Below, one piece after another: positions 15,891-37,939 of a DNA stretch of 40,700 nt; within the stretch, counting starts at the first letter, position 1; each line of letters begins with the position of its first letter. Both the position numbers and the translations under genes were made by a program. This stretch comes from Bacteroidales bacterium (GTDB taxonomy: Bacteria > Bacteroidota > Bacteroidia > Bacteroidales > UBA932): NCBI GenBank assembly GCA_017553405.1, contig JAFZME010000007.1:1-40700 (forward strand). The letters run 5' to 3'. Below the pieces are notes generated by a model. The model ran no database searches. It saw nothing but the letters and a program-made list of their open reading frames with translations, and was not told the DNA's origin.

Positions 15891-18800
15891 TTACAGCAGG
15901 TAGGTGCCGGAAACCGAGGCGCCACCGTCCGTTGTGATCATATTGGAGGAAAGCGTGATTGCAGCTCCATCCAATGTGCCCTTTACACCACAGTCGGTGA
16001 TGGTGTTGGTCTTATTGTCAGTGATGCTGACCAACACGGCTGCGGCTGTTTTATCAGTTGCAGTACCTGTTGTCAGAGTCGCCCCGTCAACCTTGCACCC
16101 GGTAATGGTTGAACCGGTTGTTTGTTCGCTTATGGTGTAAACCAGGCCACCGATATTCTTCGCTTTTGCAATCTTGCCTTTGAAGGTGCAGTTGGTCATA
16201 GAGCTGTCGAAAAGTCGTCCGACAATTCCGCCTACTCCATTGACAGATGCATTCATTCCGGACATATTGGCGGAAGATGTGTTGTTTTCGAGTGTGCACA
16301 AGTTGGCATATCCTATCACACCGCCACCTGTCCCTCTGTAAACATACACATTCTGAGTACCTACCGTACAGTCGTGAATGGAGGCAGGGCTGGTGTCCTT
16401 GCCGCTTACCAAACCTATGATACCTCCTGCAAAAGCAGAGTTCTTATTACCTGCCTTATTGCTGTAGTTGGATGAAGTAACCTTACCGGTATTATTGCAA
16501 TTCCCAATCTCTAATCCGGTTAAAGTTCCAAGTCCGGATGCAGCATTGTTGGTATATGTCATATTCGCAAGCAGTCCGACGATGCCACCGGTATACGCAG
16601 GACGGTTGTTCGCAATTTCGCCTGACAGGTCGCATTTGATTTCCGCAGTGTTTTTGCAATTGGTGATTTTTGTATCGTTGCCTTTACTATAGCCGAGAAT
16701 ACCACCTTCGGTGTTACGGGCATATACAATAGCAGAATTTGCCTGGGAAACGGTAACGGTGCCGCTGTTAAGGGTTGCATTGGCGGTTGTGCCCGAAATG
16801 GTGATGGTAGCTTCAGCGCAGCCGACGATACCGCCTAGGTCAACATAAGCGGAAATGGCGGCGCCTGGATTCTGGCAGAGAATCGCTCCGCTGTTAGTGC
16901 AGTCAGTCACTGAACAGGCGGCAGCAGTGTGTCCGATTGTTCCGCCAATATAAATAGGACCATATGAACCGGCTGTATTGTTATTGCACCAGACTTTCCC
17001 GCTGTTGCTGCAACCGGAGACAGTGGTGTTGGCAGTTGTTACATTGCCCATAATACCACCGATGGCGTTTCTTGCCGTAGCTGCAGCAGAAGCATTGTCG
17101 TTGTCGAGTTTAATCTCTGCGTCATTTGTGCAACCTAAAATGTCCATCTGCTTGTCTCCACCTCCCAGGATGCCGCCCATATCGAGAGTGGTTCTATAAT
17201 CGGTGCCGAGAATATTGCTGGTCACAGCGGCGTGGTTGGTACAATCAACAATATCGCCGGATGTATTCGGAAGCCCCATAATACCGCCGATATACATATA
17301 TCTGTTGGTTTGACCAACCTCTGCTTCTGCATTCGACCTAGTTATAGCGCCGCCGGAGTTATTGGAACAATTGCTGACATTGATACCGTCGCCTACAATA
17401 CCTCCAAGATCAACAGTGGTTGCATTGGAAACGGAAGCAATGGCTCCGTTATTCGTGCAGTTATTGACCGGCGCAGCAGAACGGGCAGCGATACCTCCGA
17501 TACGGCAAGGAGAAGTGTCTCCTCTGGCTCCGTTGTTTGATACGCTCAGGGACATATAGTTGTGACAGCCTTTTATCTCAGAATTAGTGGCTGAGGCGAT
17601 CCATCCGACAATACCGCCGACTGCGTCAACGAAAGTACCGCGTACATCTATGGCTTTCGAGGCCCCGTTGATACCGGCGGTACAATCTGAAATGACAGCA
17701 TTTTCGGCACGACCCAAAATACCTCCGACATAAATATATTTTCCTGCCGCTATGATGCCACCATAAGTTGTTGCATCGGAAATGGTGATATTGCCTGTAA
17801 ATGTGCAATTGCTTATGGTGACTTTTTCGTTCTGATAACCTGCAATGCCTCCAATGTATATGTCATTTGAAATGGTTTGTCCGGTTTGAGAACAGGAAAT
17901 ATTACCGGACATGGAACATCCGTCAATATTTCCCTTGTTATATCCCACCAGACCACCATAATAATGGCTGGCTGTGGCCACGTCCTGAATGTTGTTGATA
18001 ATGACTGAAGCGTTGCTGATGCAGTTTTTAACGGTCCCTTTGTGAAAACCGACAAGGATTCCGTGGTTTGCATCTGCGGCGGGGGAATTGACAGTGAATG
18101 AGCAACTATTGTCCAACGTAACGTTCTCAATAAATGTTGCGCTACGGGTATATTTGAACAACGGAACGTTGGCCGTATAATTGGAGATGGTTTTGCTATT
18201 TCCATTGAAGACTCCAAGGAAATAGTTGTCTGCAGTAGTACCAAAATCACCTTTCTTGGTCCCGATACCGCCGGTGGTGTTGAAATCCGCATTGGCTGTT
18301 CCTTCGCTGAAATCGATGTCGGCCACCAACGTGGCGACAAGGTCCTCTTTATCAGCATATACCCCATTATTATAATTCTGAGCAAAGGCTACCAGTTCGG
18401 CGGCATTATGAATCTCGATGCCGAGTTCGGTGGCGGTGGGGACGAAGGCGAATTCGGGCATGTTGTAGAGCTTGCCGGCCACGGCGGTCCAGGATGCGGT
18501 CTTGCTCTTGGTCATAATGTGGCCGTTCTTGTCCTGGACGATGATGTCGAAGCCGTTGGAATAGGTCCCGGCGGGGACGACGATGTAAAATACGGCGGCC
18601 GTCGAGGTGGAAGTCTCCTGACTCTTGACCACCTTGACCACTTTGTCAGCAGTAGCATCAGATGCGCCCGTGAGGGTTGCGTGTTCGTAGTCAATCGTGA
18701 AAGAACCGCTGACCTGCTCGTTGTTACGCCCCTTGAAGCGGACGGAGACGAGGTTGTCTTCGTCTGAGCCCGGAGCGCTTGCACGGAGGACGGAAATCTT

Positions 18801-19259
18801 TACTATTGCGCAAAGGTGGCTGAGTTCGAGGTCGCTGCCGTCGGCGCTGTAGCCGGCCATAGGGTTCATCCCGTCCGCGAAACTCCCGGCTTTGTATGTT
18901 TGGATGGCAGGGAGCGTTACGTGGGTTGCATCAGCGTAGATGCTCGCCGGGTACACAATATTGTAAGGTGTGTTAAGGATCCCGTTGAAGGTGAACTGCG
19001 CGCTTTGCGCATTTTCGGCCAGGTCGGCCAGTTCATCGGAAGCAGTCCCGTTGACTGCAATCTGATCGCCGTTGGACCAGTACACCTTGCGGGAACCTGA
19101 TTCGGAATCTCCCAGATAGGTCTTGCTTTCAATACCAACCGTAAGAACAGTCTTTACCGGGCTGATTTCTTCAGAAGGATTATCGATCTCCTGCAGTTCC
19201 TTGTTGCAGCCTGCGAGCAATGCCATTGCCGCAAGGGCGAAGATATAGCGTTTTTTCAT
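15891..19259 (-). CDS. Lipoprotein with fimbrillin-like N-terminus and long GLUG-repeat array
   Basis: The 1122-residue surface lipoprotein begins MKKRYIFALAAMALLAGCNK (lipobox LAGC, Cys18). Residues about 25-265 resemble the fimbrillin/Mfa-like fold: RKVYWSNGDQIAVNG, YPASIYADATHVTLPA, and VVPAGTYSNGFDIIVQDKNG. From about 270 on comes an entry block (NTTGGIGTKKG, FLGVFNGNSKTISNY, VTLDNSCSF) and about 18 GLUG-type repeats built on GGI[VAIM]G....., each followed by a C-[TS]-N-[NS]-G turn, expected to form a right-handed beta-helix. No catalytic domain is visible, so a binding or scaffold role is likely. The gene starts one base after a 48-residue ORF whose last codons supply an AGGAGG ribosome-binding site. 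Base composition drops sharply where the repeats begin. It is the last gene of the operon. Confidence 0.9.
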   Translation of the reverse strand: MKKRYIFALAAMALLAGCNKELQEIDNPSEEISPVKTVLTVGIESKTYLGDSESGSRKVYWSNGDQIAVNGTASDELADLAENAQSAQFTFNGILNTPYNIVYPASIYADATHVTLPAIQTYKAGSFADGMNPMAGYSADGSDLELSHLCAIVKISVLRASAPGSDEDNLVSVRFKGRNNEQVSGSFTIDYEHATLTGASDATADKVVKVVKSQETSTSTAAVFYIVVPAGTYSNGFDIIVQDKNGHIMTKSKTASWTAVAGKLYNMPEFAFVPTATELGIEIHNAAELVAFAQNYNNGVYADKEDLVATLVADIDFSEGTANADFNTTGGIGTKKGDFGTTADNYFLGVFNGNSKTISNYTANVPLFKYTRSATFIENVTLDNSCSFTVNSPAADANHGILVGFHKGTVKNCISNASVIINNIQDVATASHYYGGLVGYNKGNIDGCSMSGNISCSQTGQTISNDIYIGGIAGYQNEKVTISNCTFTGNITISDATTYGGIIAAGKYIYVGGILGRAENAVISDCTAGINGASKAIDVRGTFVDAVGGIVGWIASATNSEIKGCHNYMSLSVSNNGARGDTSPCRIGGIAARSAAPVNNCTNNGAIASVSNATTVDLGGIVGDGINVSNCSNNSGGAITRSNAEAEVGQTNRYMYIGGIMGLPNTSGDIVDCTNHAAVTSNILGTDYRTTLDMGGILGGGDKQMDILGCTNDAEIKLDNDNASAAATARNAIGGIMGNVTTANTTVSGCSNSGKVWCNNNTAGSYGPIYIGGTIGHTAAACSVTDCTNSGAILCQNPGAAISAYVDLGGIVGCAEATITISGTTANATLNSGTVTVSQANSAIVYARNTEGGILGYSKGNDTKITNCKNTAEIKCDLSGEIANNRPAYTGGIVGLLANMTYTNNAASGLGTLTGLEIGNCNNTGKVTSSNYSNKAGNKNSAFAGGIIGLVSGKDTSPASIHDCTVGTQNVYVYRGTGGGVIGYANLCTLENNTSSANMSGMNASVNGVGGIVGRLFDSSMTNCTFKGKIAKAKNIGGLVYTISEQTTGSTITGCKVDGATLTTGTATDKTAAAVLVSITDNKTNTITDCGVKGTLDGAAITLSSNMITTDGGASVSGTYLL

Positions 19260-19260
19260 A

Positions 19261-19407
19261 TTACCATTCCTCCTCTTCTTCAACTATAACAGGGATTGTG
19301 TATGAATCCAGGATCCCGTCAAGAGGCGAGATCTCCAGAGGTGTAGAGCAGGGGGGCTCATACACTTCTTTGATTGTTGTTTTGATCAGTTCCATCATAT
19401 AGTGCAT
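19261..19407 (-). CDS. Small ORF (48 aa) ending in EEEEEW, upstream of GLUG lipoprotein
   Basis: I add this ORF from reading the gap. It encodes a 48-residue protein starting MHYMMELIKTTIKEVYEPPC and ending TIPVIVEEEEEW. It aligns without gaps to the 44-residue ORF at 25222-25356 over the last 33 positions (shared Y, P, I, L, S, TIP, E, EEEW). Both stand one base before a fimbrillin-like+GLUG lipoprotein. No signal peptide or membrane segment is present. Its last codons (GAG GAG GAA TGG) also form the Shine-Dalgarno sequence of the next gene, so it may be a coupling leader ORF, a real small protein, or both. The start is 20 nt after the preceding phosphoesterase stop. I recall similar unnamed small proteins near Bacteroidales fimbrillin genes, but do not know a function. 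Confidence 0.6.
   Translation of the reverse strand: MHYMMELIKTTIKEVYEPPCSTPLEISPLDGILDSYTIPVIVEEEEEW
19269..19274 (-). promoter_or_regulatory. Shine-Dalgarno AGGAGG inside small ORF, serving the GLUG lipoprotein
   Basis: On the minus strand AGGAGG lies 9 nt before the lipoprotein ATG at 19259, within the final Glu codons of the small ORF. Strong Shine-Dalgarno sites are unusual in Bacteroidota, where most genes here lack one. Confidence 0.55.
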
Positions 19408-19427
19408 AGTTTTATTCTCAAAAGAAT

Positions 19428-21932
19428 CTACCAGGAAACCGTCCTGGAATAGGTGTTCCCGAAACGGTCGGTAACGCTGACGGTACCGGTGCCGGAGGCC
19501 GGAGCGTCGACACTGAACATTGTCAGGGGCAAGCCGGGGGAGTGCGTTTTGTAGCCGGCTGAGGTGAGTAAAGAAGAATAATTTGCGTTATAGAAGTCGA
19601 TGATTTCCTTATTTGCGATATCGAAGCCGGTCCTGTCCGCTTCCTTGACATCAACGTCTTCGATATGTTCCATTATTACAGGAGAGCCTCCGCTCATTGT
19701 CAGTGTCGGTCTTTGCCACAGGCTGTCCCAGAGGAAAACGTTGACATAAAGCTTGCCGTCGCTATATGCATCCGGCGGGAATACGTGCATCTGATAGCTC
19801 TCGTCCAGGTCGGCGCCTGTGTCCTTCATTTTGGCCACCGCCGGGCTGGTGTCGGTATATACCCAGTCACAATAGGAATAAGCCGGCTGTCCGTGAGAGC
19901 CGTGGAAGCTGCTCATCAGGTACTTGGTGGGATGGAAGCGCCAGGATGCTACGTCGCCGTTCACAACTTCGACTATCGTAAATCCCCTCGGGGTACCGTT
20001 GGATAGATACTCGTTGGTCCACAGCTCTCCTGTCGAGCGTGCGAGGGTGTGGACCTGGATGTTCTTGTTGCGGTGAGAGGAAGGATAGATATAGTTGAAC
20101 GTAGTATGGGAGTGCCCGCCCCAGGCGTGGACTTCGTCGTAAGAATCAAACAAGGTCCCGTAGCCGTAGGCATAGCCCTCGCTTGAGTTGTGCCCGCCGT
20201 GCTTTGAAGTGTTTGTGCGTTCACTGCCGTTGTCGCACTTGAACAGGGGAGAATGAGCGAAGACCATAACGGTTGTGGATGTCGGAATGAAAGTCATATC
20301 GGCTTGCAGCCAGGTCCAAATCTCATCGGTGAGACCGTGGTCGTAAGCGCCGATTTTCCCGTTCCCGCCGTCTTTCATTATCACGTTGTCCAGCACTACG
20401 AAGTGGATGCCTCCGATGTTGAAGGAATAGTTTCTGGGACCGAACAACTCCTCGAATCGCCACGCTCCTTCGTCGTCGGAGGTCTTTGACATATCATAGT
20501 CGTGGTTCCCCATAATATTATAGGTGGGATACCCGAGCGTCCCGAGAGCCGTGGCGTAGGTGCCCATCAGGTCCATATCTTCGTGGACAAGATCTCCAAG
20601 ACAGATGCCATAGACCTGACGGTCTGTAATTGGTGCCGCAGTTTCTTGTAGATCACGATAAAGCGCTTCGCAGCAACGGGTGGAACGGTAGGCGATATTA
20701 TCCAGGCCCAGGGATGTGGCACGTGGCTGCGGGTCGGCAGTAATGAACAGCGTGTAGGTGTTTGGATTGGCAACCGGAGTCAGTACGAAGTCTCCGCAAT
20801 TGTAAATCCCGTCCGACGGGGTTATGCCGGAGAGCAGCTTGTAGAAACGCGGTTTGCCGCCTTCTACTGCTGGTAAATAGCCGGACGGTGTGCTGATCTG
20901 GATGAACTTGACATTCGGGATATCGCTTGTCATATAGAATGACCCGTCGAACATCGTCCTGACGCACTGCAGGCCGTCAGAGACTACGACGCCTTCAATG
21001 CCGTTGCCGGAGTTGTCCACAACGCGGCCCTTGACGTTGAAGCCGTCCGGTTCGAGTACTTCCTCCACAATATCTTCGATCTCAAAGCTCGTGGCGAGAG
21101 CCGAAGGGACGAAGGTGAATGCGGTCATCTTTTTCATACCCCCGGCCGTGAGGGTTACGGATTCATCCTTGACCTTTGTCATCGTGCGGTGCAGGTTGTC
21201 TACCAGCTCTACGTAGAATCCGCCGGAATAGGTCCCCGCGGGGACTACCAGGAATATATCCAAAGGAGCGCTCTCGGAAAGAGGCTGCGACAGGGACATC
21301 GTCAGTGTCTTGTCTGCCGTGGCAGAAGAGCTCGGCGTGAGGGTATGTGCTTGATAATCAATGGTAAAGTCGCCACAAACCTGTTCGCCGTTGTTGCCGC
21401 GGAATCTTACCGCTGCGAGGGAACTCTGGGAAACCGCAGCATCCTTTGATATAATAAGGTGTATAATCGATCCGAGATGGGCCAGGCTGATATCGGCCCC
21501 TGCAGTTGCGGCATATCCGCAAAGGGGAGCCACGTTGTTCGCAAAGGTGCCGGCCGCATATTCCTGCGTGGCAGGCAATGTGATTGTGCCGGAGTTTTTG
21601 TAGAACGATGCAGGATACAGAAGATTGAATGGAGGATTGATGACACCCTGGAAGGTGAAGCTGGCGGATACCGCATCTTCATCCAACCCGGACAGTGCCT
21701 CCGAAGCCACCCCGTTGAGGCTGACCTGGTCGCCGTTGGACCAATAGACCTTCCTCTTCCCGTCGACGGGCTCACCAAGGGACGTCTTGCTTTCAGGCAA
21801 TCCGATGGTAAGGATTGTCTGCCTTTCTTCAAGCTCCTTTTCCCTGTTGCAGCCCACAATCATCGCCACTACGCAGGCAGCCATAAGGAGCTCTATGGAG
21901 GCCAAATCTCTGTATCTCTGCAAATTACGCAT
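19428..21932 (-). CDS. Fimbrillin-like / calcineurin-like phosphoesterase fusion lipoprotein
   Basis: This 834-residue lipoprotein (lipobox IVGC, Cys28) joins three parts. Residues about 35-280 are a fimbrillin-like module close to that of the two neighbouring GLUG lipoproteins (RKVYWSNGDQVSLNG, YPASFYKNSGTITLPA, VVPAGTYSGGFYVELVDN). Residues about 297-390 are a carboxypeptidase-regulatory-like beta-domain (GRVVDNSGNGIEGVVVSDG), as in MetallophosN. From 395 a metallophosphoesterase follows with ADPQPR (399-404), GDLVHED (446-452), GNHDYD (475-480), AHSP (559-562) and GGHSHT (605-610), then a MetallophosC-like tail ending in Trp. It should be an exported, metal-dependent phosphoester or diphosphate hydrolase on the cell surface; the substrate is unknown. 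The N-terminal signal (MRNLQRYRDLASIELL before the hydrophobic stretch) is longer than usual. A 14-bp hairpin lies just upstream. Confidence 0.9.
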   Translation of the reverse strand: MRNLQRYRDLASIELLMAACVVAMIVGCNREKELEERQTILTIGLPESKTSLGEPVDGKRKVYWSNGDQVSLNGVASEALSGLDEDAVSASFTFQGVINPPFNLLYPASFYKNSGTITLPATQEYAAGTFANNVAPLCGYAATAGADISLAHLGSIIHLIISKDAAVSQSSLAAVRFRGNNGEQVCGDFTIDYQAHTLTPSSSATADKTLTMSLSQPLSESAPLDIFLVVPAGTYSGGFYVELVDNLHRTMTKVKDESVTLTAGGMKKMTAFTFVPSALATSFEIEDIVEEVLEPDGFNVKGRVVDNSGNGIEGVVVSDGLQCVRTMFDGSFYMTSDIPNVKFIQISTPSGYLPAVEGGKPRFYKLLSGITPSDGIYNCGDFVLTPVANPNTYTLFITADPQPRATSLGLDNIAYRSTRCCEALYRDLQETAAPITDRQVYGICLGDLVHEDMDLMGTYATALGTLGYPTYNIMGNHDYDMSKTSDDEGAWRFEELFGPRNYSFNIGGIHFVVLDNVIMKDGGNGKIGAYDHGLTDEIWTWLQADMTFIPTSTTVMVFAHSPLFKCDNGSERTNTSKHGGHNSSEGYAYGYGTLFDSYDEVHAWGGHSHTTFNYIYPSSHRNKNIQVHTLARSTGELWTNEYLSNGTPRGFTIVEVVNGDVASWRFHPTKYLMSSFHGSHGQPAYSYCDWVYTDTSPAVAKMKDTGADLDESYQMHVFPPDAYSDGKLYVNVFLWDSLWQRPTLTMSGGSPVIMEHIEDVDVKEADRTGFDIANKEIIDFYNANYSSLLTSAGYKTHSPGLPLTMFSVDAPASGTGTVSVTDRFGNTYSRTVSW

Positions 21933-21950
21933 ATTCTCTATGCTTGAAAA

Positions 21951-21985
21951 GATACAGAGAGAATGTATTTGATTCTCTCTGTATC
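21951..21985 (-). terminator. Perfect 14-bp intergenic hairpin
   Basis: GATACAGAGAGAAT and its exact reverse complement ATTCTCTCTGTATC flank a 7-nt loop (GTATTTG on the plus strand) in the 69-bp gap after the second GLUG lipoprotein. On the transcribed minus strand the stem is followed by TTTTC. It could be a partial terminator, or an RNA-processing or stability element that lowers expression of the last genes. The short U-run makes full termination doubtful. Confidence 0.5.
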
Positions 21986-22001
21986 ATTAAATTATCCTCC
22001 A

Positions 22002-25000
22002 CTACGGGTCGACTACGTTGCCGCCGCCGTCGGTGAAGTTGTCGTCGGAACAGATGCTAATCGTGCCAGTGTGATGGCAATTTTTGATCGTAGTTCCGGC
22101 GACTGAGGATGCGGCAATTTCGCCGATGACGGTTGGCGCCTTGGTCGCGGTGATGTCCTTGCAATAGTTATAGCAGCCGTCAACTGTGCTCCCGGCATCC
22201 AGTTTGGCAACGATTCCTCCCGAGGCATAACCCTGTGTGGCGGCAATCTTGGCGCCTTTGAATTTACAGCCTGTAATGTTCGAGTTTACAGCCCAGCCTA
22301 CAATTCCGCCTGTAATGTGGTTATACATATTGTAATTAGCTTGCACATCAGAAGACGAAATATCAGCGTACTTTGCATATCCGGCCACTCCGCCGCAGGT
22401 GCCGCGACGCGCCCCGACATCACTGCTGTAAGTCCAGTTGCATAACGAGATGGGGATGCGGTCTTCGGCAGTTCCCTGCACAAAGCCTACAATTCCGCCT
22501 TCGGCAAAAATCTTGTCCGCATCATTATCGGTATTGTTGCCGGCATTGAGAAAAACGCTGCCTGTATTTGTGCATTCACTGATAGAGGATTTGCCGGCAA
22601 GAGAGCCAGCGATACCGCCGACGTGCAACGTTTTGTCCGTAGCTGAGTAATTTGACGTGTGGATGAAGCCGGAGTTGGTGCAATTGGATATATCGACATC
22701 ATTGGTTGTGTAAGCCAGGATGCCTCCAACGTGATTGTCCGTATGTAACGCCCCGGTTTTAAGGTTCATATATACTTCACCGGTGGTGCCGCTTCCGTGT
22801 TCATTTACACAGCCGGCGATATCTCCGTCACCAGCCATAACAGCGACTACACCACCAACATAAACTTTGCTGGCGACATAGGCGTCAGAAGCCCAGTTGA
22901 ACAAGACATAGCCGGAATTCTTTGCGTTCTTTACAGACGCCGTCGAGTATCCTACAATGCCGCCGATTTCATATCCGGTAAACTGTTTTTCGAAGTTGCA
23001 GTTGAAATAAACCTGTCCGGTATTGGTTATGTTCTTCGATGCGCCGCCGTCGATGTCTGCGAGGTTGTAAGCGATAACTCCTCCCATACGGGCTTCGCAG
23101 AGAGGTTTATGATTAGTGTCATCGTAGTTGGTCTCCATCGCTGAAATCTGGATATTAGCGGTGTTGTGGACATCGGTTACAGTTGCGCCGGAGGCGTTTT
23201 CACCGATGACACCGGCGATGCTGACAACACGACCGCCTTTTTTAGTGGCACCGGTAACACCTGTCGTCATATGATTGACCTCGGCAGTATTGGTACAAGA
23301 CGAAATGGTTCCGGCATTATAGCCCGCAATACCTCCAAGGTCCTGAATTTTAGGGTTCGAGCGATGTTGAACCTTTGCGTTGTTGGTGCAGTTGCTGACA
23401 GTGCCATTGGCGTTGTTCTTGCCTACAATACCACCGGTGTCCATATAGCGGCTGCCATCTGTGGTCTTTTTAAAGATAGTGTTGAAGATCGTAGCGGCGT
23501 TAGTGCAATTTGAAACCGTGCCTTTATTGAGCTCTCCTACTATACCGCCACAGGCGGAAAAATAAGCTACAGTGGTTTTGTTAACGATATGGCCTATTGA
23601 AGTAGCTCCACTATGGGCAGATTGAACAGTCTCATGATCTGCCGTGGCGCTTGATGAGGAGATTGTTGCTCCGCCATCAAGATAACCAACCAGACCGCCG
23701 ATGATCAGGAAGGGATTCCTTTTGAGAAGCGTACTTTCGGTCGATTCATTTTCAATGCCGATCTGCGCCTCGTTGCTGATGGCACCTTTGAAATAAGAAC
23801 CGGTTATGCTGCCGGTGTTGGAGAAACCGAGCAGACCGCCGATAATGAGTTTGCGGAGGTTGGGATCATCGTCCGGAGCTGTTGCCGTGAAACCGGGAGG
23901 CGTGGAAATGAGGCCGGAATACTCGCAACCGGTCAAATCTCCGCAGTTGGAATACCCTACAAGTCCGCCAAGAGTTGTCATATATTTGACATCGGCCACT
24001 GCGGCAAGCGAGATGTCGGCGGCGCATTTGACGTTGTCAAGCAGGCCTTCGTGGTCGCCAACTACGCTGCCGAACATAGCTTCTCCTGTGTTAGGGTGAG
24101 TAAATGTGAATGAGCAGGTGTTGTCGAGGGTGAGGTCCTTGACGGTGCCGTTGTCCCCGATGGCGACAAAGAGGGGGACGGTGGCCTGGAGACCGCTGAT
24201 GGTGAAACCGTTACCATCGAAGAGACCGTTGAAGTAGTAGTCTTCGGTGCCGTTGACGCCTGTCTTGAGGCCGATACCGCCGGTTTCGTTGAAGGCGGCG
24301 GAGGTGGTGGCGTCGAATTCAATGTTATTGATAACCTTGGCGACGACCGAAGTCCAGGTCTTATTATTATAGTTTGTAGCAAAGTCAATCAAGTTCTGCG
24401 CGGAGGTGATTATGACGTCAATCTGGGTGCCGGTGGGGACGAACTCGATGACGGGCATGGACTTGATTTCACCTGCGGCAAGGGTCTTGGCACCGGTCGT
24501 AGGAATTTCCATGAAATGGCCCTGGACGTCGGTAATCCTGACTTTAAAGTTATAGGTGCCGGCGGGGACGGGGATGAAGACTTCGGTCGCCTGGTCGGAA
24601 AGGTTGAGATTCTTTACGAGCGAGACCATCGAGGCGGTGGGATCCGCAGGGGTGAGGGCGCCGGTCTCGAAATCAATCGAGAAGTCACCGCTAAGTTGTC
24701 CGTCTTCGGAGCTGACGTCGATACGCTTGATTATATCGGTGTCGGGGTTCTCTCCGCTGTAGCGCTTGATGGAAAGCTTGAGTGCAGCGGTGAGAGGGGT
24801 CACCGTGATATTATTGTCGTCGCCGTAGCCGGAGAGGGGCATGATGCCGCTGGCCGAGTAGGTGGCGGGAAGGGTGACGGTAGCGTCATTTTTCCATATA
24901 GTCTCGGGGTAGACGGCTTTGTAGGGGGCAACGATAACCTTGTCGGTGAATGAGAAGGAAGCGCTGCGGGAGTTGGCCTCGAGACCGGCGAGAGCGTCGG

Positions 25001-25220: not shown

Positions 25221-25221
25221 C

Positions 25222-25356
25222 CTACCATTCCTCCTCTGTTTCGTTAAACTCAGGAATGGTGGCTGAAGCCAGGAAGCAGCGCTCCATATCGATGGGGCGG
25301 ATTCTGAGGGCTGGCGTCACGTAGGTCTGACGCGTTTCTCTTGAATGTTTTTCCAT
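25222..25356 (-). CDS. Small ORF (44 aa) ending in EEEW, upstream of GLUG lipoprotein
   Basis: I add this ORF from reading the gap. It encodes 44 residues: MEKHSRETRQTYVTPALRIR, then PIDMERCFLASATIPEFNET and EEEW. It begins 9 nt after the stop of the GLUG-phosphoesterase fusion and its TAG is followed by one base and the ATG of the fimbrillin-like+GLUG lipoprotein. The 48-residue ORF at 19261-19407 shares its position, its C-terminal EEEW, and Tyr, Pro, Ile, Leu, Ser and TIP at identical distances from the end. There is no signal peptide. It could be a small partner protein or a leader that couples translation of the next gene. No known function comes to mind. Confidence 0.6.
   Translation of the reverse strand: MEKHSRETRQTYVTPALRIRPIDMERCFLASATIPEFNETEEEW
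25230..25235 (-). promoter_or_regulatory. Shine-Dalgarno AGGAGG inside small ORF, serving the GLUG lipoprotein
   Basis: AGGAGG (minus strand) lies 9 nt before ATG 25220 and is made of the last Glu codons of the 44-residue ORF. The same arrangement with the same spacing is found before the gene at 15891-19259. Confidence 0.55.
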
Positions 25357-25365
25357 TATTATTGA

Positions 25366-29879: not shown

Positions 29880-29880
29880 A

Positions 29881-32808
29881 CTAGATTCCATTCCAAAGTG
29901 AGATGCCGCTGACAGTGCACTCACAGTCTGCGATGTTGCCGACGGCGAAATTGCTTACGGAATTCTGGGTGATTTCAAGTCCTGAAATCGCACCGCCGAA
30001 CTTGCAGTCTTTGATTACGGTGTTGTCCTGGGCAAGTCCTGTGACTCCGCCGAGATAGGTTACCAGAGTACCCTGCGTGGTACGGCTGCCGCTTAAATGA
30101 CCATACCAGGAGGAATTCTTTATCTCCACCTTGTCGCCTTCCGCCGCGCTTTCCATAATGTGGGCGACTATACCGCCGGCGTCGGCCGATGTGCTGCTGC
30201 CATATTGGACAACGTCCATATCGGATTTGGCAGTGCAGTCATCAACCGTACCGTTGCCCAGCGCGCCGGCGATGCCGCCCTTGTAGGCGGCCTGGTTGTC
30301 GCTCTTGTCGGTCTTCAGGTGTTTGGAATTGCCTTCCCAGCTGCAGTTGCTGAAAGATGCCCCATAGGCATAGCCGGCGATGCCGCCGATAAAGCCGCGG
30401 ATGGCGCACAGGTTGCCTTTCGTGACGCAATTGCTCACGGTCACTTTCTTGGCCTGCGGATTGGGCTTGTAGTTGAAAGCACCGATAATGCCGCCGGTAG
30501 CGGTGGCAGAGTAGTAGTTGCCGTAGGTGTTGCCGACGAAATTGTTGGAGTAGAAGTTATTCGTCAGGTCGATGCGGTTTTCGCAGTTGGTGAAGGACAT
30601 ATCGGCACCATAGCAATGGCCGGCGATGCCACCCATTATCATCATATAGCCGTTTGAACGGCCGTTGTTGGCTGTTGAACCGGCCGCATTGTCCATTTTG
30701 CCCTTGTTGATGCATCTGGTGAAAGAGGCCGCACCGTTGACGAGTCCGGCGACGCCGCCGACGCAGTTGCGTCTTACGTGGACGGCGTTGGACGCGAAGA
30801 GGTTGGATAAGGCGCCTTCGTTGGTGATGTCCTCGAAAGTGAGTTCTCCGGCGAGAGCGTCCGGTTCGCAAGCTCCGAGGAATCCTCCGGTGCAGATGTA
30901 TTCGCCTTCGAGCTGTTCGGTGAAATCAAGGTTGAAGTTGGTCAGTGTGGTGTAGCCCTTGGCGCTGAGTGAAACTCCTTCGCCGATGAGACCGATGAAT
31001 CCTCCGGCGAAGATGCGCACTCCGGTGTCGGAGAGGTATTTCTTGATGTTGATGGTCCCGGAGGTGGCGGATTTGTCGGTGGTGTAATCAAAGGACAGGC
31101 TTCCTGAGGGAGCATAGGCGACGATGCCGCCGATGTTGGCGAATTTGCCCGCGCCCTTGAGTTCGATTGTCCCGGTGAAAGCATTGCCCGACAAGGACGC
31201 GCCTTCCGGTATCAACGGGGTGATGCCGCCTGCATTGACCTTGTTGTGGCCGGAATTCAGGTTTATGGTCCCGTTCATCTCGGAATTGATGATTGAGCCG
31301 AGATTGTGGCCGACGAGACCTCCGATATGTGCGTTGAGGCCTTCTGCTGCAGTCGTCTGTGAGGAAATCGTTATGGAGCCGTTCATCTTGCAGGCCCTGA
31401 CCACCGTGTAGGCATCAGCTTCGCCCAGAATACCGCCGATGTAGGTATCCTCGAATGATTTGCCCAGAAACACAATGCTGCCGGCGAAGGTGCAGTGGTC
31501 GAAGGTGCTGCCGGAGGCAGCGACAGCGATGCCGCCGAATTTTTCATTGGTGTTGTTGAGCAGAGCGCAGTGCTTGTCAAGGGAGATATTCTTTACGGTC
31601 GCTCCTTCGCAGGCATTGAAAAGGGGAGTATTGCTCTCCAGATTGACGATTGAGTGGCTCCCGCCGTCGAATACGCCGGCAAAGGGATGTTCTGCGGAGC
31701 CGATACCGGCCCAGTCGTCGACACCGTTCATATCGATGTCCTGGAGGACCTTGACTTCTCCTTCGGTCTCCCAGCTCTCAGTTGACTCTCCTGCGGCCAC
31801 CTTGGCTGCAAAGGCCTTGAGGCCGGCGGCGGTCATAAGTCCGCCTGCGGGGAGGAAGTCCTGGACCATAGGAGGGAGATTGATGGAAGATGAAGCGGCA
31901 TTGTTGAGGACGATGGAGACGGGAATCTCGCGGAGCATCTCGCAGTCGCTGAGGTTTTCCTCGAATGCGATGGAAATGGTGACGGTGCCGTCGTCGTTGC
32001 CGGACATTTCTGTCGTTGCGTAGGCGGGGGCATTAATTGTCTTTATCACGTAAGGCGGCGCGATGAAACTGATCTCCGCAGGCTCATCGTTAGGGAAGAA
32101 GATGTTGCCTTCACCGTCGTACTGGAGGTCATCACCGAACTGATACAGTGCGATTTCGTCTTCATCGCCGCTGTCCTGGTCTTTCAGGGTGATAATCCCG
32201 TAGCGGGAATCGCCGTCGTTGTTTGCTGCCCAGATTTTCAGTGTCTTGGTCGTCGTGGACTCGTCAGCATCGGTGTTGATCTCCTCGACGTTTATCCACT
32301 CGTTGTATTCAAGATTCCACTGGGCGTCTTTGAGGGTGGTGACGTCCACTTCGTAGTCAAGCTCTCCCTTCGGGGAAAGGAGGAAGGGATGGCTGATTAT
32401 GAAAGCCGAGCCGCTCTGGCTGACTCTCAAGGTCGAGCCGCGATATTCGCCGGCGACGAAGGTGAGTGTCGCGTCCTCACGGGCGTCGAAGCCTTCATTC
32501 GCATCGATCTCGATGAAGAAGGAACCCGGGCCGATGTGGGTGTCGGGGATGATGCGGCACCAGTCCTTGTCGCTTTCGATGTTCCAGTGGATGTTCTCGT
32601 TGTTGAGATCGACGGTAATCTCCTTCTGGACAGCACCGTGGGGGAACGCGAGGTTCGTGACGGCGGTGCCGGCGTCGGAGTAGCTGACGGAGATGGGAAC
32701 TCTCTGTCTTGATTCCAGATCCTTCCTGTCGGCGTCGGTCTCTTTCTTACACCCGGAGGCGAGCAGCGTCAGGGTTGCAAGGATAATATATGTCAGATAT
32801 CTTTTCAT
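29881..32808 (-). CDS. BACON and GLUG-repeat surface lipoprotein
   Basis: This 975-residue lipoprotein (lipobox ASGC, Cys20) follows SusD directly, the usual place for a surface glycan-binding protein in a Sus-like locus. Residues about 40-135 form a BACON domain (IHWNIESDKDWCRIIPD, DAREDATLTFVAGEYRGSTL, RVSQSG). A second, weaker BACON-like domain spans about 136-230 (AQWNLEYNEWINVEEI). After a further beta-rich stretch comes a GLUG entry block near 370-410 (FAGVFDGGSHSIVNL, KNISLDKHC) and about 14 GLUG-type repeats. It ends SLWNGI. BACON domains are thought to bind mucin or carbohydrate or to act as spacers. A ligand-binding role beside SusCD is likely; the ligand is unknown. The phosphoesterase gene starts one base after the stop. 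Confidence 0.9.
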   Translation of the reverse strand: MKRYLTYIILATLTLLASGCKKETDADRKDLESRQRVPISVSYSDAGTAVTNLAFPHGAVQKEITVDLNNENIHWNIESDKDWCRIIPDTHIGPGSFFIEIDANEGFDAREDATLTFVAGEYRGSTLRVSQSGSAFIISHPFLLSPKGELDYEVDVTTLKDAQWNLEYNEWINVEEINTDADESTTTKTLKIWAANNDGDSRYGIITLKDQDSGDEDEIALYQFGDDLQYDGEGNIFFPNDEPAEISFIAPPYVIKTINAPAYATTEMSGNDDGTVTISIAFEENLSDCEMLREIPVSIVLNNAASSSINLPPMVQDFLPAGGLMTAAGLKAFAAKVAAGESTESWETEGEVKVLQDIDMNGVDDWAGIGSAEHPFAGVFDGGSHSIVNLESNTPLFNACEGATVKNISLDKHCALLNNTNEKFGGIAVAASGSTFDHCTFAGSIVFLGKSFEDTYIGGILGEADAYTVVRACKMNGSITISSQTTAAEGLNAHIGGLVGHNLGSIINSEMNGTINLNSGHNKVNAGGITPLIPEGASLSGNAFTGTIELKGAGKFANIGGIVAYAPSGSLSFDYTTDKSATSGTINIKKYLSDTGVRIFAGGFIGLIGEGVSLSAKGYTTLTNFNLDFTEQLEGEYICTGGFLGACEPDALAGELTFEDITNEGALSNLFASNAVHVRRNCVGGVAGLVNGAASFTRCINKGKMDNAAGSTANNGRSNGYMMIMGGIAGHCYGADMSFTNCENRIDLTNNFYSNNFVGNTYGNYYSATATGGIIGAFNYKPNPQAKKVTVSNCVTKGNLCAIRGFIGGIAGYAYGASFSNCSWEGNSKHLKTDKSDNQAAYKGGIAGALGNGTVDDCTAKSDMDVVQYGSSTSADAGGIVAHIMESAAEGDKVEIKNSSWYGHLSGSRTTQGTLVTYLGGVTGLAQDNTVIKDCKFGGAISGLEITQNSVSNFAVGNIADCECTVSGISLWNGI

Positions 32809-32819
32809 AGCTTGCTTTT

Positions 32820-34598
32820 TTATTGTCTGCCTTTAAGACGGGTTTCGGCGCTCTCCGCAGTGGCCGCCCACCAGACATCCGTCTGGATGTTGTTGGTGCC
32901 GCCGAGCCATCTTGCCAGAACTTCCGGGAAGGTTGTCGGGTTGCGGTAGAGTTCGTCGGAAGGATAACGCATACGCGTGGGAAGGATGTGGTCGTTGCCG
33001 GCGGCGGGACCGTCGGTACGGAGGAGAGGATAGCCGGTGCGGCGGTAGTCGCACCAGGACTCGATGCTGATGAAGAAGTTGGAGAGCCACTTCTCGGTCA
33101 GGATGGCCTCAATGGCGTTCTCGGAGTTGAATGTGTTGCCGCTGTATTTCTGAACGGTGGCGCAGTGGGAAACATATTCCGTGACTTCCGGCGAATCAGC
33201 CGTCACATAGGGGTTCCACTCGAGAATGCTCGCGGTGATGCCCTGCTTGAAGAGCGGCTGATAGGCGGCAAATGCGGAAATGGAATTTACCCAGCCCCTG
33301 GCGCCGGCTTCGGCGTAGATGAACAGGAGCTCCGAGTACTGCATCAGCGGATAGTAATCTGCGTTCTGGAGATCGTAGATCTTGCCGGTGAGAGCGCTGG
33401 GCTCGGGATCGCCGTTTGCGTTCTTGCCCCTGACCATCCTGCCAATCTTGGAGTTGCCGGCCGAGGATTTGTGGAGGGCGCTGTCGAGGAACTTGGCGCG
33501 GACGTCGGTCTCGAGGTGGGCCGGCATACCGTTGACCTTCCTCCACCAGCAGTCGTAGCGGGGATCCTCGATGTGGCCGCCCTTCTCGGACGATTTCCAC
33601 TCGTAGTAGGTGAGGTTCAGCTCGTCGTCGTGAAGCTCGGTTGTGTCGAGCATCCAGCGGCAGAGCTGGTCGCATACGGCGACGGTGTTCCAGGTGCCGC
33701 TTGTCGTGGTGTAGAACGGGGTGTGCTCTATCTCGTTCTGGTCGCTGAAGGGAATCAGCGGACGGTCGTTGATGTTGCGCATCTGCGGATAGTCGCCGTC
33801 GCCGCTCTGGAAGTTGGCGAAGAGCTCGCCGAGCTTGGCCTTTATGTTGACGGACTCCCATTTCTCGTCGCCGAGGTCGAAGGAGCCGCCGTCTTCTTCG
33901 ATGACCTTCATACCGATCCTCATCAGGACTCTGGCATAGAGCGAGTTGCCGAAACGGCGCCACTTGTTGAAATCGCCGCCGAAAGTCTTGTCGCAGGCGG
34001 GAGAGAAGTTGAGGCGGATGGAGGTGCCGGTGGCATTGGACGCTTCCAGTTCGCCGAGAAGTTCGTTGGCGTCTTCCAGCATTATGATAACCTTGCGGTA
34101 GATGTCCTTCTGGGTGTCGTAGTTCATCGTGTATTTGCCCGCTGCGTCGCCGACGGCCAATCCGCAGGCTTCGGAGAAGGGGACGTCGCCGTAGGTGTCG
34201 GTGATCTGTGTGATGAGGAAGGACTGTATGATGAGGGCCACGGCCTGCATAGGACCGTCCTTCTCCTTCACCGCCTTGTCGTACATAGCGACGGCATTGC
34301 CGAGCTGGAGGTAGAGGGCGGACCAGATGTCGTCGGTCGAGCCTTCAGGGATATTGTAGTTGTCTATGACCCTCGAAGATTGCTCGGCGTTGGTCGAGAC
34401 CGCATACTGCATCAGCAGGACCGTCGTAGAGCGGAACACGCTGATGAGGTTGTACTGTGTCTTGAACATTATGGGGTGGACATACGCCTCGGAAGGGGAG
34501 TCATAGAGAGCATAGGGATTGTTGCTCATCTCGTCGAACTTCTTGCAGGAGAGAGTTGCGAGCAGCAGTACTGAAATGGCGATTATAAACTTTTTCAT
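32820..34598 (-). CDS. SusD/RagB family outer membrane lipoprotein
   Basis: SusD-like proteins form the lid of the SusC transporter and capture nutrients on the cell surface. The 592-residue protein starts MKKFIIAISVLLLATLSCKK (Cys18). The helical SusD fold is visible in QSFLITQITDTYGDVPFSEA, DFNKWRRFGNSLYARVLMRI, LMQYSELLFIYAEAGARGW and the C-terminal LTEKWLSNFFISIESWCDYR. I choose ATG 34598 over ATG 34604 because AGGAGG ends exactly 7 nt before 34598 and directly abuts 34604. It lies 16 nt after susC and 11 nt before the BACON-GLUG gene, so it is the second gene of the operon. Confidence 0.95.
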   Translation of the reverse strand: MKKFIIAISVLLLATLSCKKFDEMSNNPYALYDSPSEAYVHPIMFKTQYNLISVFRSTTVLLMQYAVSTNAEQSSRVIDNYNIPEGSTDDIWSALYLQLGNAVAMYDKAVKEKDGPMQAVALIIQSFLITQITDTYGDVPFSEACGLAVGDAAGKYTMNYDTQKDIYRKVIIMLEDANELLGELEASNATGTSIRLNFSPACDKTFGGDFNKWRRFGNSLYARVLMRIGMKVIEEDGGSFDLGDEKWESVNIKAKLGELFANFQSGDGDYPQMRNINDRPLIPFSDQNEIEHTPFYTTTSGTWNTVAVCDQLCRWMLDTTELHDDELNLTYYEWKSSEKGGHIEDPRYDCWWRKVNGMPAHLETDVRAKFLDSALHKSSAGNSKIGRMVRGKNANGDPEPSALTGKIYDLQNADYYPLMQYSELLFIYAEAGARGWVNSISAFAAYQPLFKQGITASILEWNPYVTADSPEVTEYVSHCATVQKYSGNTFNSENAIEAILTEKWLSNFFISIESWCDYRRTGYPLLRTDGPAAGNDHILPTRMRYPSDELYRNPTTFPEVLARWLGGTNNIQTDVWWAATAESAETRLKGRQ

Positions 34599-34605
34599 TG
34601 TCATT

Positions 34606-34611
34606 CCTCCT
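34606..34611 (-). promoter_or_regulatory. Shine-Dalgarno AGGAGG that decides the susD-like start
   Basis: The minus strand reads AGGAGGAATGACAATG. Seven bases separate AGGAGG from the second ATG (34598), an optimal spacing, while the first ATG is too close. The string AGGAGGAATG is also found before both fimbrillin-like+GLUG lipoproteins. Confidence 0.55.
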
Positions 34612-34614
34612 ATG

Positions 34615-37600
34615 TTAGAAAGTGATATTCAGTGATGCGCCGAACTGGGCGGTCGTCGGCATCTGCAGGATTTCGAAGCCGGGGATGACGGAGCTGCCTC
34701 GCATTGTGAGGGCCTCGGGGTCCCACCCGGGGAATTTGGACCAGCAGTAGAGGTTGTTGCCGTAGAAGGCCAGGGAGAGATTGCTGATGACCTTGGTCTT
34801 GGCCAGGAGCTTCTTCGGGAACGCATATTCGACACGCACTTCACGAAGCTTGAGGAACTGCGTGCTAACGAAGTTGGCTTCGGCGTTGGTGTTGTCGTAC
34901 TTGTTGTGGTAATAGGTCGCGATCTGGTCCTTGGGGATGGCGGTCGTGTTGATCACGTAGTTGCCGTCTGCAGTCTTGCGGACACCGACCGGGACGAGGC
35001 TGCCGTCGCGGCCTTCGAGGGTGGCGACGCCTTTACCGCGGTAGTTGAGCACCCAGTTGGTGTAGGAATAGACGTGGCCGCCGACCTGGCCGTCGAAGCC
35101 GATGTAGACGGAAAGCCCTTTCCACTTGAAGGTCGTGTTGAAGCCGCCCTTGCACTTTGGAGCGGCATCGCCGAGGTACTGGAGGTCGGTCGAGGTCTGG
35201 GGCCTGTTCTGGTCGTCCAGGACCAGCATACCGGAGACGTCGACCATATTGCCCTGCGCGTCGATGGCGGTGGCTCCCTGAGGGGCCCTGACGTAGCCCT
35301 TGCCGTACATTGCCGTGAGGCTGCCGCCTTCATAGGCCGTCATATAGGCGTGGGTGGAGTACCAGGCCACGATCCAGGAGTCGATGCCGTCGCCAAGGGA
35401 GACAACCGTGTTGCGGTTGAGGGTGAAGTTGGCGCCGACTTTCCACTGGATGTCGCGTGTCTTGATGAGCGTGCCGGTGATGGAGGTCTCGAAACCGCGG
35501 TTGCGGATGGAACCTGCGTTGATGTAGATGCTGCTCACACCGTTGGCGTAGGAAATCGGCATCTGGGAGATGAGGTCCTTGGTGACGGAGTCGTAGTAGG
35601 CGATGTCGAAATCGAGCCTGTTCTTGAACATCCTGAGTTCAAGGCCGACCTCCCAGGAGCTGACGGTCTCCGGACGGAGTTTCGTGTTGGTTTTGGCCGA
35701 AGGGATGGCAACGGTGCCGGGGAATCCGGTGGACTGAAGGTAGTTGGCTATTCTGTAGGGAGCCGTGTCGTTGCCGACGCGTGCCCAGGAAGCCCTGATC
35801 TTGAGGAGGTTGAGGAGACCGTTGGTGCGTCCGAACTCGAAGAGGTCGTTGAGCACCACGCTGCCGGAGACCGAAGGATAGAAGAACGAACGGTTGCCCT
35901 TCGGGAGGGTGCTGGACCAGTCGTTGCGGCCCGTGGCCTCGAGGAATATGGCATTCTTCCACGACAGGGAGACCATACCGTAGAGCGAGTTGGTCTGGCG
36001 GCGGTAGCTGTTGTTGCCGGTCAGGGGCTCGTAGGCGGTGTTGGGCAGTTTATAGACTCCGGGGTTGTACAGCGCACTGGCAGTCTGCGAGTGGTTGCTG
36101 TAGCTGCGGAAGATGATGCTGCCGCCGAAGTTGGCGGTGAGTTCGATGTCGTGGGCGAACAGTTTGTTGTACTTGAGGAGGAAGTCGCCGGAGAACTGCT
36201 TCGAGTCGATGTCCTGCTCGCGGTACCAGCCGTTGGGCTTGGCCTGGGTGGAGGTCGCCTGCCTCTGGGTACGGAAGTCGCTCGTGATGTCGAGACCGCC
36301 GCGGACAGTGAGGTCGAGGCCCTTGTAGATGTCGGCCTTCATCGTGATGTTGCCGTAGACACGGTCGCGCTTCTGGTCGTTGATACACTGGTTGGCCACG
36401 AAGTAGGCGTTGTTCTTGCCGCCGGACAGGGATGCATCCTGCTTGACGGCAGCCTCGTCCTTCCAGTAGTTGGAGACCCAGTCCATATCGATGTTGGGAG
36501 CGTAGCACCAGGCGCTATACATAATGGAGGTGGAGCCGTAGCCTGAAGAGGTCGGGATGTTGTCCTGGCGGGTGTGCTTGTAGTTGACTGAGCTGTCGAG
36601 CTTGAGCCAGGGGGCGAGGCGGTTGGATGTGCGCACAGACAGATAGTGAGTCTGGCTCGGCGAATTGGGCACTATGCCTCTGACCGTGCTGTTGGTGTAG
36701 GTGAGGCGGACGCTGTGCTCCTTGTTGATCTTGGCGGAGAGCATCACCGAGTTGGTGAAGTTGAGGCCGGTCTGGAAGAAATCCTTGAACCAGTCGCCGT
36801 AGCTGATGAACGGGGTGGCGTCGCGGGTGAAGCCCGTAATCTCGTCGTAGTGGCCGCCTATGCCTTTGGCTTCGTTGAAGTACTGGTAGTAGGGCGTGCC
36901 GTCCATCCTCGGACCCCAGGACTCCATCGTTGCGGTCGTGGTCTTGGAGGGGTCGGGGTTGAGGCCGATGACGTCGTCGCCTTCGCCGCTCACGAGGTAG
37001 TAGTAGTAGTCCTGCGTGGCGTTGCCCTGGCCGAACTCATACTGAAGGTCGGGGGAGGAAAGGAGGACGTCGGCGGCGAAGCTCGACTTGAAGTTGACGT
37101 TGAACACCGCGTCCTGGCCTTCGGCCGACTTGGTCGTGATGATGATCGCACCGTTGGCGGCCTGGGAACCGTAGAGGGCGGTCGCGGCGGCGCCTTTCAG
37201 GACAGTGACGCTCTCGATGTTCTCCGGGTCGATGTCGCCGACGCCGTTGCCGTAGTCGATGGCGAAGGTGTTGCCCTCGCCGCCTGCGTCGGAGGTCGTG
37301 GCGGTGTTGTACATCGGGACGCCGTCGATGACGAAGAGGGCGGTGTTGTTCTCAAGGGTTGCGGAGGATTCGCCTCGGACGGTCACACGCATAGAGCCGT
37401 TGGGGCCGCCTGAACGGTCGATGTTGAGACCTGCGACCTGGCCGGCCATTCCGTTGATCCAGTTGCCGGTGGTCCCGGCGTTGGCGAATTTCTCGCTCTC
37501 GACTTTCTGGACGGAATAGCCGAGGGCTTTTTCATCCCTCTTGATGCCGAGGGCGGTCACGACGGCTGTCGAAAGGACTTCAGAGTCGTCCTTCATTACA

Positions 37601-37896
37601 ACGCGCGAAAGCGAGGGAGCCCCCGCTTTCACCGTGACTGTCTCATAGCCGAGGAAGGAGAAGGAAATTTCCTCTCCCGGGGTGGCCGCGAGGGTCCAGG
37701 CGCCGTTCTCGTCGGAGATGGTGCCGTTGTCTTTTGTGAAGACTGCAACTCCCGGGATGGTCTCTCCGTTGAGGTCTACGATGACGCCACTGTAGGTGGC
37801 TTTCGCGGCCGGCGGAGTGTCCTGTGCCGAAAGCGCGGGCGCTGTCCCGAGCAGTATGGCCAGGGACAGGCAGATTAGCTTAAGGATGCGGTACAT
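34615..37896 (-). CDS. SusC/RagA family TonB-linked outer membrane transporter
   Basis: This 1093-residue TonB-dependent transporter imports nutrients captured by SusD. Signal peptide MYRILKLICLSLAILLGTAP ends ALSA|Q. The mature N-terminus has a carboxypeptidase-regulatory-like domain (ATYSGVIVDLNGETIPGVAV). The plug follows, with the family motif VTALGIKRDEKALGYSVQ, the Sus-type VRGESS, LFVIDGVPM and the segment VTVLKGAAATALYGSQAANG. The remainder is a 22-strand barrel ending GASLNITF, with a C-terminal Phe for BAM recognition. Length is normal for SusC. It is the first gene of the operon, 55 nt after the sugar-kinase stop, with a consensus -7 box. No regulator (HTCS, ECF/anti-sigma) is in the window, and no N-terminal STN domain suggests anti-sigma signalling. 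Confidence 0.97.
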   Translation of the reverse strand: MYRILKLICLSLAILLGTAPALSAQDTPPAAKATYSGVIVDLNGETIPGVAVFTKDNGTISDENGAWTLAATPGEEISFSFLGYETVTVKAGAPSLSRVVMKDDSEVLSTAVVTALGIKRDEKALGYSVQKVESEKFANAGTTGNWINGMAGQVAGLNIDRSGGPNGSMRVTVRGESSATLENNTALFVIDGVPMYNTATTSDAGGEGNTFAIDYGNGVGDIDPENIESVTVLKGAAATALYGSQAANGAIIITTKSAEGQDAVFNVNFKSSFAADVLLSSPDLQYEFGQGNATQDYYYYLVSGEGDDVIGLNPDPSKTTTATMESWGPRMDGTPYYQYFNEAKGIGGHYDEITGFTRDATPFISYGDWFKDFFQTGLNFTNSVMLSAKINKEHSVRLTYTNSTVRGIVPNSPSQTHYLSVRTSNRLAPWLKLDSSVNYKHTRQDNIPTSSGYGSTSIMYSAWCYAPNIDMDWVSNYWKDEAAVKQDASLSGGKNNAYFVANQCINDQKRDRVYGNITMKADIYKGLDLTVRGGLDITSDFRTQRQATSTQAKPNGWYREQDIDSKQFSGDFLLKYNKLFAHDIELTANFGGSIIFRSYSNHSQTASALYNPGVYKLPNTAYEPLTGNNSYRRQTNSLYGMVSLSWKNAIFLEATGRNDWSSTLPKGNRSFFYPSVSGSVVLNDLFEFGRTNGLLNLLKIRASWARVGNDTAPYRIANYLQSTGFPGTVAIPSAKTNTKLRPETVSSWEVGLELRMFKNRLDFDIAYYDSVTKDLISQMPISYANGVSSIYINAGSIRNRGFETSITGTLIKTRDIQWKVGANFTLNRNTVVSLGDGIDSWIVAWYSTHAYMTAYEGGSLTAMYGKGYVRAPQGATAIDAQGNMVDVSGMLVLDDQNRPQTSTDLQYLGDAAPKCKGGFNTTFKWKGLSVYIGFDGQVGGHVYSYTNWVLNYRGKGVATLEGRDGSLVPVGVRKTADGNYVINTTAIPKDQIATYYHNKYDNTNAEANFVSTQFLKLREVRVEYAFPKKLLAKTKVISNLSLAFYGNNLYCWSKFPGWDPEALTMRGSSVIPGFEILQMPTTAQFGASLNITF

Positions 37897-37931
37897 TATT
37901 GTTTTGATGTGTGTACTGTGGTTGTAAAAGG

Positions 37932-37939
37932 CAAATATA
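37932..37939 (-). promoter_or_regulatory. Predicted -7 box of susC operon
   Basis: TATATTTG on the minus strand matches TAnnTTTG exactly, 35 nt before the susC ATG. It is overlapped by an AT-only palindrome, TATATAAAAA-ATC-TTTTTATATA at 37936-37958 (plus strand), which also reaches over the kinase stop codon. Confidence 0.5.

Follow-up and report, generated by a model that had tools for sequence, protein, structure and literature searches.

A gene run on the minus strand of contig JAFZME010000007.1, from the draft genome of a Bacteroidales bacterium (assembly GCA_017553405.1; 2.25 Mb in 177 contigs), joins a SusC/SusD pair to three phosphoesterases and several GLUG proteins, and we lean towards the view that it is an operon of the polysaccharide utilization locus (PUL) type, re-tooled to bind, cut and import a glycoconjugate linked or decorated by phosphate esters. 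The run occupies positions 15891-37896 of the 40,700-nt stretch that was analysed (the window). This reading is carried by the gene content and order, their conservation, the intact active sites, the folds of two of the proteins and the association with phosphatase and transporter genes in relatives; from these we infer a surface location, a class of substrate and a direction for the pathway.

Read from its 5′ end, the run holds eight large genes. The SusC/RagA TonB-dependent transporter (34615-37896, 1093 aa; TIGR04056, 605 bits) and the SusD-like lipoprotein (P0002, 32820-34604, 594 aa; PF12771 and PF12741) are followed by a BACON and GLUG β-helix lipoprotein (P0003, 29881-32808, 975 aa), a lipoprotein phosphoesterase built as MetallophosN-Metallophos-MetallophosC (P0004, 28206-29879) and a protein in which a GLUG-like N-terminal half precedes a MetallophosN/C phosphoesterase (P0005, 25366-28206, 946 aa). 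Three lipoproteins starting with a domain labelled FIM complete the run, namely a FIM-GLUG protein (P0006, 22002-25220, 1072 aa), a FIM domain joined to a MetallophosN/C phosphoesterase (P0007, 19428-21932, 834 aa) and a last FIM-GLUG protein (P0008, 15891-19259, about 1122 aa from its ATG). For P0004 the start was taken as ATG (a GTG at 29924 merely lengthens the frame), and for P0008 likewise, not as the TTG at 19283. With the longest frames the gaps between the large genes are 10, 11, -44, -1, 145, 69 and 144 nt, and the -44 nt before P0004 becomes 1 nt with the ATG start. Two small open reading frames (ORFs), one each in the 145- and 144-nt gaps, bring the total to ten, not the nine same-strand genes of the initial annotation, whose single same-strand run from SusC to FIM-GLUG is confirmed. 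A Pfam domain scan placed MetallophosN and MetallophosC in three proteins of the run and GLUG in P0003, P0006 and P0008, and gave no match to a glycosidase, lyase or sulfatase inside the window's run, bearing out the earlier statement that calcineurin-like phosphoesterases are its only recognised enzymes.

All three phosphoesterases (P0004, P0005 and P0007) carry the complete dinuclear metal-ligand set, in motifs that we take to form the metal site, and are predicted to be metal-dependent enzymes with intact dinuclear sites. The set is also complete in 28/28 orthologues of P0004 (one a fragment), 27/27 of P0005 and 18/19 of P0007, and P0005 carries GDxxY, as purple acid phosphatases do. By structure comparison the nearest folds to P0004 are GpdQ glycerophosphodiesterase and related enzymes; a phmmer search of the PDB with P0004 alone returned a chance match at E 0.4 and nothing else. 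Further proteins with these domains are encoded in the window's genome: a fusion of MetallophosN-Metallophos-MetallophosC and a glycerophosphodiester phosphodiesterase (GDPD) in one frame from a contig end (L044:2-2158, contig C9), and three more MetallophosN/C proteins of about 1100 aa each on contig C50 (L036), one with a heparinase II/III-like C-terminal match.

A relative of the SusD protein is present in 33/400 genomes of the genus at E ≤ 1e-60, and in 13/151 at 1e-40. We mapped 34 SusD loci, two of which share a genome, and in 26/26 of those that extend to the fifth core gene the order SusC, SusD, BACON-GLUG, metallophosphoesterase (MPE), GLUG-MPE is kept, two of them having a frame break in one gene and one having the fifth gene off the contig; the remaining eight end early, at a contig or region end, and are consistent with the core order so far as they are covered. 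A gene order not conserved in related genomes, which the initial annotation had named as a refutation of its reading, is therefore not what these loci show. Downstream of the core the FIM genes vary in number and order. Among 393 genomes of the order, from 206 genera, the GLUG-MPE fusion was found at E ≤ 1e-90 in the window's own genome alone (at most two candidates were scored per genome, and the sample had just two other genomes of the genus), and at this threshold the system looks genus-restricted. The named relatives are rumen metagenome bins from sheep, goat and water buffalo and two RUG bins, a sixth and weak match being a Clostridia bin; RUG12551 lies outside the set of 33 genomes. Contigs L029, L030, L031 and L033 were taken as G216, G252, G360 and G153 and counted once, and some locus regions were widened after their neighbours had been inspected. 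A distantly related gene set lies on contig C72 of the window's genome (L037, 5007-19432), where a 607-aa unlabelled gene, an MPE and two GLUG-like genes come after a second SusC-like gene.

In relatives, phosphatase, transporter and glycosidase genes stand at the locus. When copies at the locus were compared with uniform placement across the 33 genomes, EEP phosphatases were enriched (10 of 124 copies against 1.7 expected, P 1e-5), as were organophosphate:phosphate (OPA) antiporters (6 of 75 against 1.0, P 6e-4, with at most four candidates scored per genome), glycoside hydrolases of family 97 (GH97; 5 of 35 against 0.5, P 1.5e-4) and kinases of the N-acetylglucosamine/N-acetylmuramic acid (GlcNAc/MurNAc) type (4 of 33 against 0.5, P 1e-3). 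Scoring every OPA candidate gave 7/76, the seventh being a fragment in G391b, and the P value predates this rescoring. The counts include contig-end EEP fragments (G035, G391), one opposite-strand EEP gene (G004) and a GH97 gene in G011 missed by the ORF caller. The closest PDB entries to the EEP phosphatase include a mannosyl-6-phosphatase, and the antiporter matches GlpT at 3e-49 with its pocket residues kept. The two genes lie -1, 3, 3, 6 and 6 nt apart in G222, G111, G304, G245 and G256, with an OPA-SusC gap of -1 nt in G222 and a FIM-MPE to EEP gap of 1 nt in G111 and G304; because the pair is upstream of SusC in G222 and downstream in the other loci, its position suggests repeated recruitment. 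GH97 is inside the run in G004, G011 and G111, preceding FIM-MPE in all three (by 6 and -4 nt in G004 and G111, where FIM-MPE to SusC gaps are 12 and 22 nt), and GH127-like genes occur in 8/35 mapped loci, two on the opposite strand. The window's own GH97 is a divergent neighbour of the run (38832-40700, plus strand, cut by the window end) and is of the retaining α-galactosidase type (NF053844, 959 bits). As relatives have an α-galactosidase at the locus above chance frequency, the lack of a glycosidase is not a rule. The earlier interpretation of a locus for a phosphorylated ligand is supported in part. The 33 locus genomes are rich in genes for histidine acid phosphatases (MINPP-like), with 142 matches in all and 1 to 8 in each.

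The claims made for the GLUG and FIM proteins and for their location fared unevenly. Foldseek, run on P0003 as the one GLUG protein, ranked Ig-like and other domains first at low TM-scores, and on a second look the predicted fold matched the β-helix of IgA1 protease and of BACOVA_03286. Four GLUG proteins had been proposed, and P0003, P0006 and P0008 are such by Pfam, whereas Pfam gives no GLUG match at 1e-3 in the N-terminal half of P0005, which by BLAST matches a protein (L040) with a match to the GLUG part of P0006 too. The label ‘fimbrillin’ finds no support in the sequence: at E ≤ 1, PF13149 (Mfa_like_1) matches none of the FIM genes in the window and is missing from the families that 14 FIM N-termini hit, and elsewhere in the same genome it matches at 15 places, 10 of them above the cut-off. 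A lipobox Cys with acidic residues behind it is present, by pattern, in P0002, P0003, P0004, P0006 and P0008, and in P0007 the pattern chose a Cys that lies ahead of the invariant Cys28. A loose lipobox pattern matches P0005 and 13 others of the 27 GLUG-MPE proteins, but the Cys is not conserved throughout and lacks an acidic residue behind it; P0005 probably has a plain signal peptide and would be periplasmic or soluble, not surface-anchored. By their N-termini, P0004 and P0007 would be the lipoproteins among the three supposed surface phosphoesterases, and the figure of three is not confirmed.

A Bacteroidales-type -7 promoter box, TATATTTG, lies on the minus strand at 37932-37939, 35 nt upstream of the SusC ATG. 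The motif TAnnTTTG, which we take to be a Bacteroidales promoter element, stands near the SusC start in 15/32 loci against 2/89 control starts (SusD, MPE and GLUG-MPE), and 14/17 loci that lack it have a same-strand gene whose end lies no more than 65 nt from SusC. Outside the run, a GlcNAc/MurNAc-kinase-like gene (37952-38791, minus strand) is probably a separate unit, since it has its own promoter-like box, which adjoins that of the divergent GH97. The 69-bp gap between P0006 and P0007 folds as a whole at -20.9 kcal/mol and contains a hairpin of 14 perfect base pairs with TTTT behind it (21951-21985, minus strand), a possible terminator or attenuator that is not among the terminator-scan listings; in several relatives this gap is just 8-12 nt, and co-transcription beyond the hairpin is presumed. 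No Rfam family was found in the window at gathering scores. The two small ORFs, also on the minus strand, encode acidic-tailed proteins of 44 aa (25222-25356) and 48 aa (19261-19407), 1 nt upstream of P0006 and P0008, respectively. They belong to a group of proteins about 37-59 aa long that carry Y..P at the start and an acidic tail whose end lies close to W. By a search pattern devised once sequences had been seen, such a protein is encoded directly upstream of 30/54 FIM-type genes (FIM-GLUG 27/30, FIM305-type 3/3, FIM-MPE 0/19, other FIM 0/2) against 9/312 other same-direction genes at the same loci. Similarity among the small proteins follows that of the downstream FIM domains (Mantel r 0.62, 0/2000 permutations, relatedness not removed), and neither Pfam nor NCBIfam gives a match at E ≤ 1 for the two window proteins or for the one relative searched. 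An RNA element in the 145-nt gap was considered and dropped when the alignment revealed the conserved small ORF.

In the mechanism that we propose, the long GLUG β-helix lipoproteins would bind the ligand at the cell surface, the lipoprotein phosphoesterases P0004 and P0007 would cut its phosphoester or phosphodiester links, and SusC/SusD would move the pieces to the periplasm, where soluble P0005, together with the EEP phosphatases and glycosidases (GH97, GH127-like) of relatives, would complete the breakdown; a GlpT-like antiporter would then take organophosphate into the cytoplasm and phosphate out. OPA antiporters swap organophosphate for phosphate and yield no net phosphate, so the gain is probably carbon, which moderately favours a phosphoglycan-type PUL over phosphorus scavenging. 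That alternative, in which organic phosphate is gathered under phosphate shortage as in Flavobacterium and carbon is incidental, is possible but rather unlikely, being at odds with the antiport and with the glycosidases that join the run in relatives. It draws on a shared logic, since the Flavobacterium PUS clusters have PusCD with phosphodiesterases, lipoproteins modelled on a polygalacturonase and organic-phosphorus transporters nearby, but two PusD proteins listed there are pf07980/pf14322 and the SusD here is PF12771/PF12741 (PMC8115612). A narrower proposal, that this is a genus-specific rumen PUL class for teichoic-acid-like, glycerol-phosphate-type polymers of other bacteria, with surface GpdQ-like enzymes beside β-helix binders, we regard as doubtful; there the GpdQ-like enzymes would depolymerise the phosphodiester backbone and the GlpT-like carrier would import glycerol phosphate. 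We give little credence to a nucleotide, nucleic acid or diphosphate-linked ligand (5′-nucleotidase, SMPDL3-like or ADP-ribose/CDP-alcohol diphosphatase activity), as a scan of 48 neighbour proteins, which covered only part of the neighbours, recognised neither a nucleosidase nor a nucleoside transporter, and the α-galactosidase and GlpT-like genes fit it poorly. Less credible still is an adhesion locus whose GLUG β-helices, IgA1-protease-like, bind protein or a surface with the phosphoesterases as accessories, for the SusC and SusD head of the core is in 26/26 loci extending to the fifth gene (SusD having served to select the loci), and genes for enzymes and transporters are at the locus above chance.

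Four other candidates were rejected or weakened: phytate as the ligand of MINPP-like enzymes, a family that is in all 33 locus genomes and not significantly enriched at the locus; MurNAc utilisation, prompted by the kinase in the window and, in G313, by an upstream GKRP-like SIS protein, with the kinase at the locus in just 4/28 kinase-bearing genomes; a standard glycan PUL whose phosphatase is incidental, given three phosphoesterases in the window's run and two in the conserved core; and plant glycosyl inositol phosphorylceramide, for which a literature search gave no title on Bacteroides uptake. Several results weigh against the phosphoglycan-type PUL itself. The top Foldseek match of P0004 is the cyclic-nucleotide phosphodiesterase Rv0805 (5.3e-9, TM 0.32/0.58), and its near folds range over phosphodiesterases, phosphomonoesterases and a diphosphatase, so more than one kind of bond may be its target; the FIM-MPE of G248 has Asp replacing one GHxH histidine. 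OPA genes are present in 306/400 genomes of the genus, hence mere presence is not specific and only position near the locus counts, and the window has none, the genome's two copies being on contigs C26 (where it overlaps an EEP-type gene) and C87, which means that the locus does not require the transporter. His_Phos_2 genes show no significant excess at the locus (5/142 copies against 2.0 expected, P 0.05), the P values assume unrelated genomes as well as uniform placement and ignore shared ancestry, and the transcript may stop early, at the hairpin (21951-21985).

If our preferred reading is true, gut and rumen Bacteroidales have their own carbon-driven counterpart of the soil PUS, aimed at phosphate-bearing glycoconjugates, a ligand class overlooked by annotation centred on carbohydrate-active enzymes (CAZymes), and GLUG β-helix proteins gain a possible role; our literature searches found none tied to nutrient uptake, and no paper on GLUG with SusD and phosphoesterase, on GlpT in PULs or on teichoic acid with SusC/SusD and phosphatase. 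The locus supplies three enzymes and a short list of candidate ligands for testing.

Adjacent SusC and SusD homologues are present as in a PUL, and co-localised glycan-degrading enzymes are absent from the window's run, with GH97 divergent next door and GH97 or GH127-like genes in the runs of some relatives. The GLUG β-helix of P0003 is like that of IgA1 protease and BACOVA_03286, but the window's GLUG proteins have no protease domain. P0004 shares fold and profile with GpdQ, purple acid phosphatases and their relatives, at about 14% identity to GpdQ, and differs from them in its DxQ first motif, extra N- and C-terminal β domains and lipoprotein signal. In SusC/SusD loci of gut Bacteroidales such as B. 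theta BT0446-49 and BT0451-54, SusD and TonB receptor genes lie by a ‘calcineurin-like phosphoesterase C-terminal domain’ protein, as here, but with family 10 glycosylhydrolases, whereas the window's run has three phosphoesterases and no glycosidase (PMC10434189). The closest known systems are PUSI-PUSIV of Flavobacterium johnsoniae, and the window has the PUS arrangement of a SusCD pair with phosphoesterases in place of CAZymes, which some relatives do have in the run. Polygalacturonase is a β-helix protein. PUSI combines PusCD with two phosphodiesterases predicted to be periplasmic (pf00149, pf16670), sister clusters are rich in lipoproteins modelled on a polygalacturonase, inner-membrane organic-phosphorus transporters co-localise, and the clusters are induced on phosphate depletion (PMC8115612). 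Compared with PUS as described there, the window shares with PUSI the SusCD-type pair beside metallophosphoesterases, and differs in having three MetallophosN/C enzymes, of which two carry a GLUG or FIM fusion, another SusD Pfam family, a restricted host genus and, in some relatives, glycosidases. The principle of SusCD with phosphoesterases is thus already known from soil bacteria, and the GLUG/FIM build described here is new.

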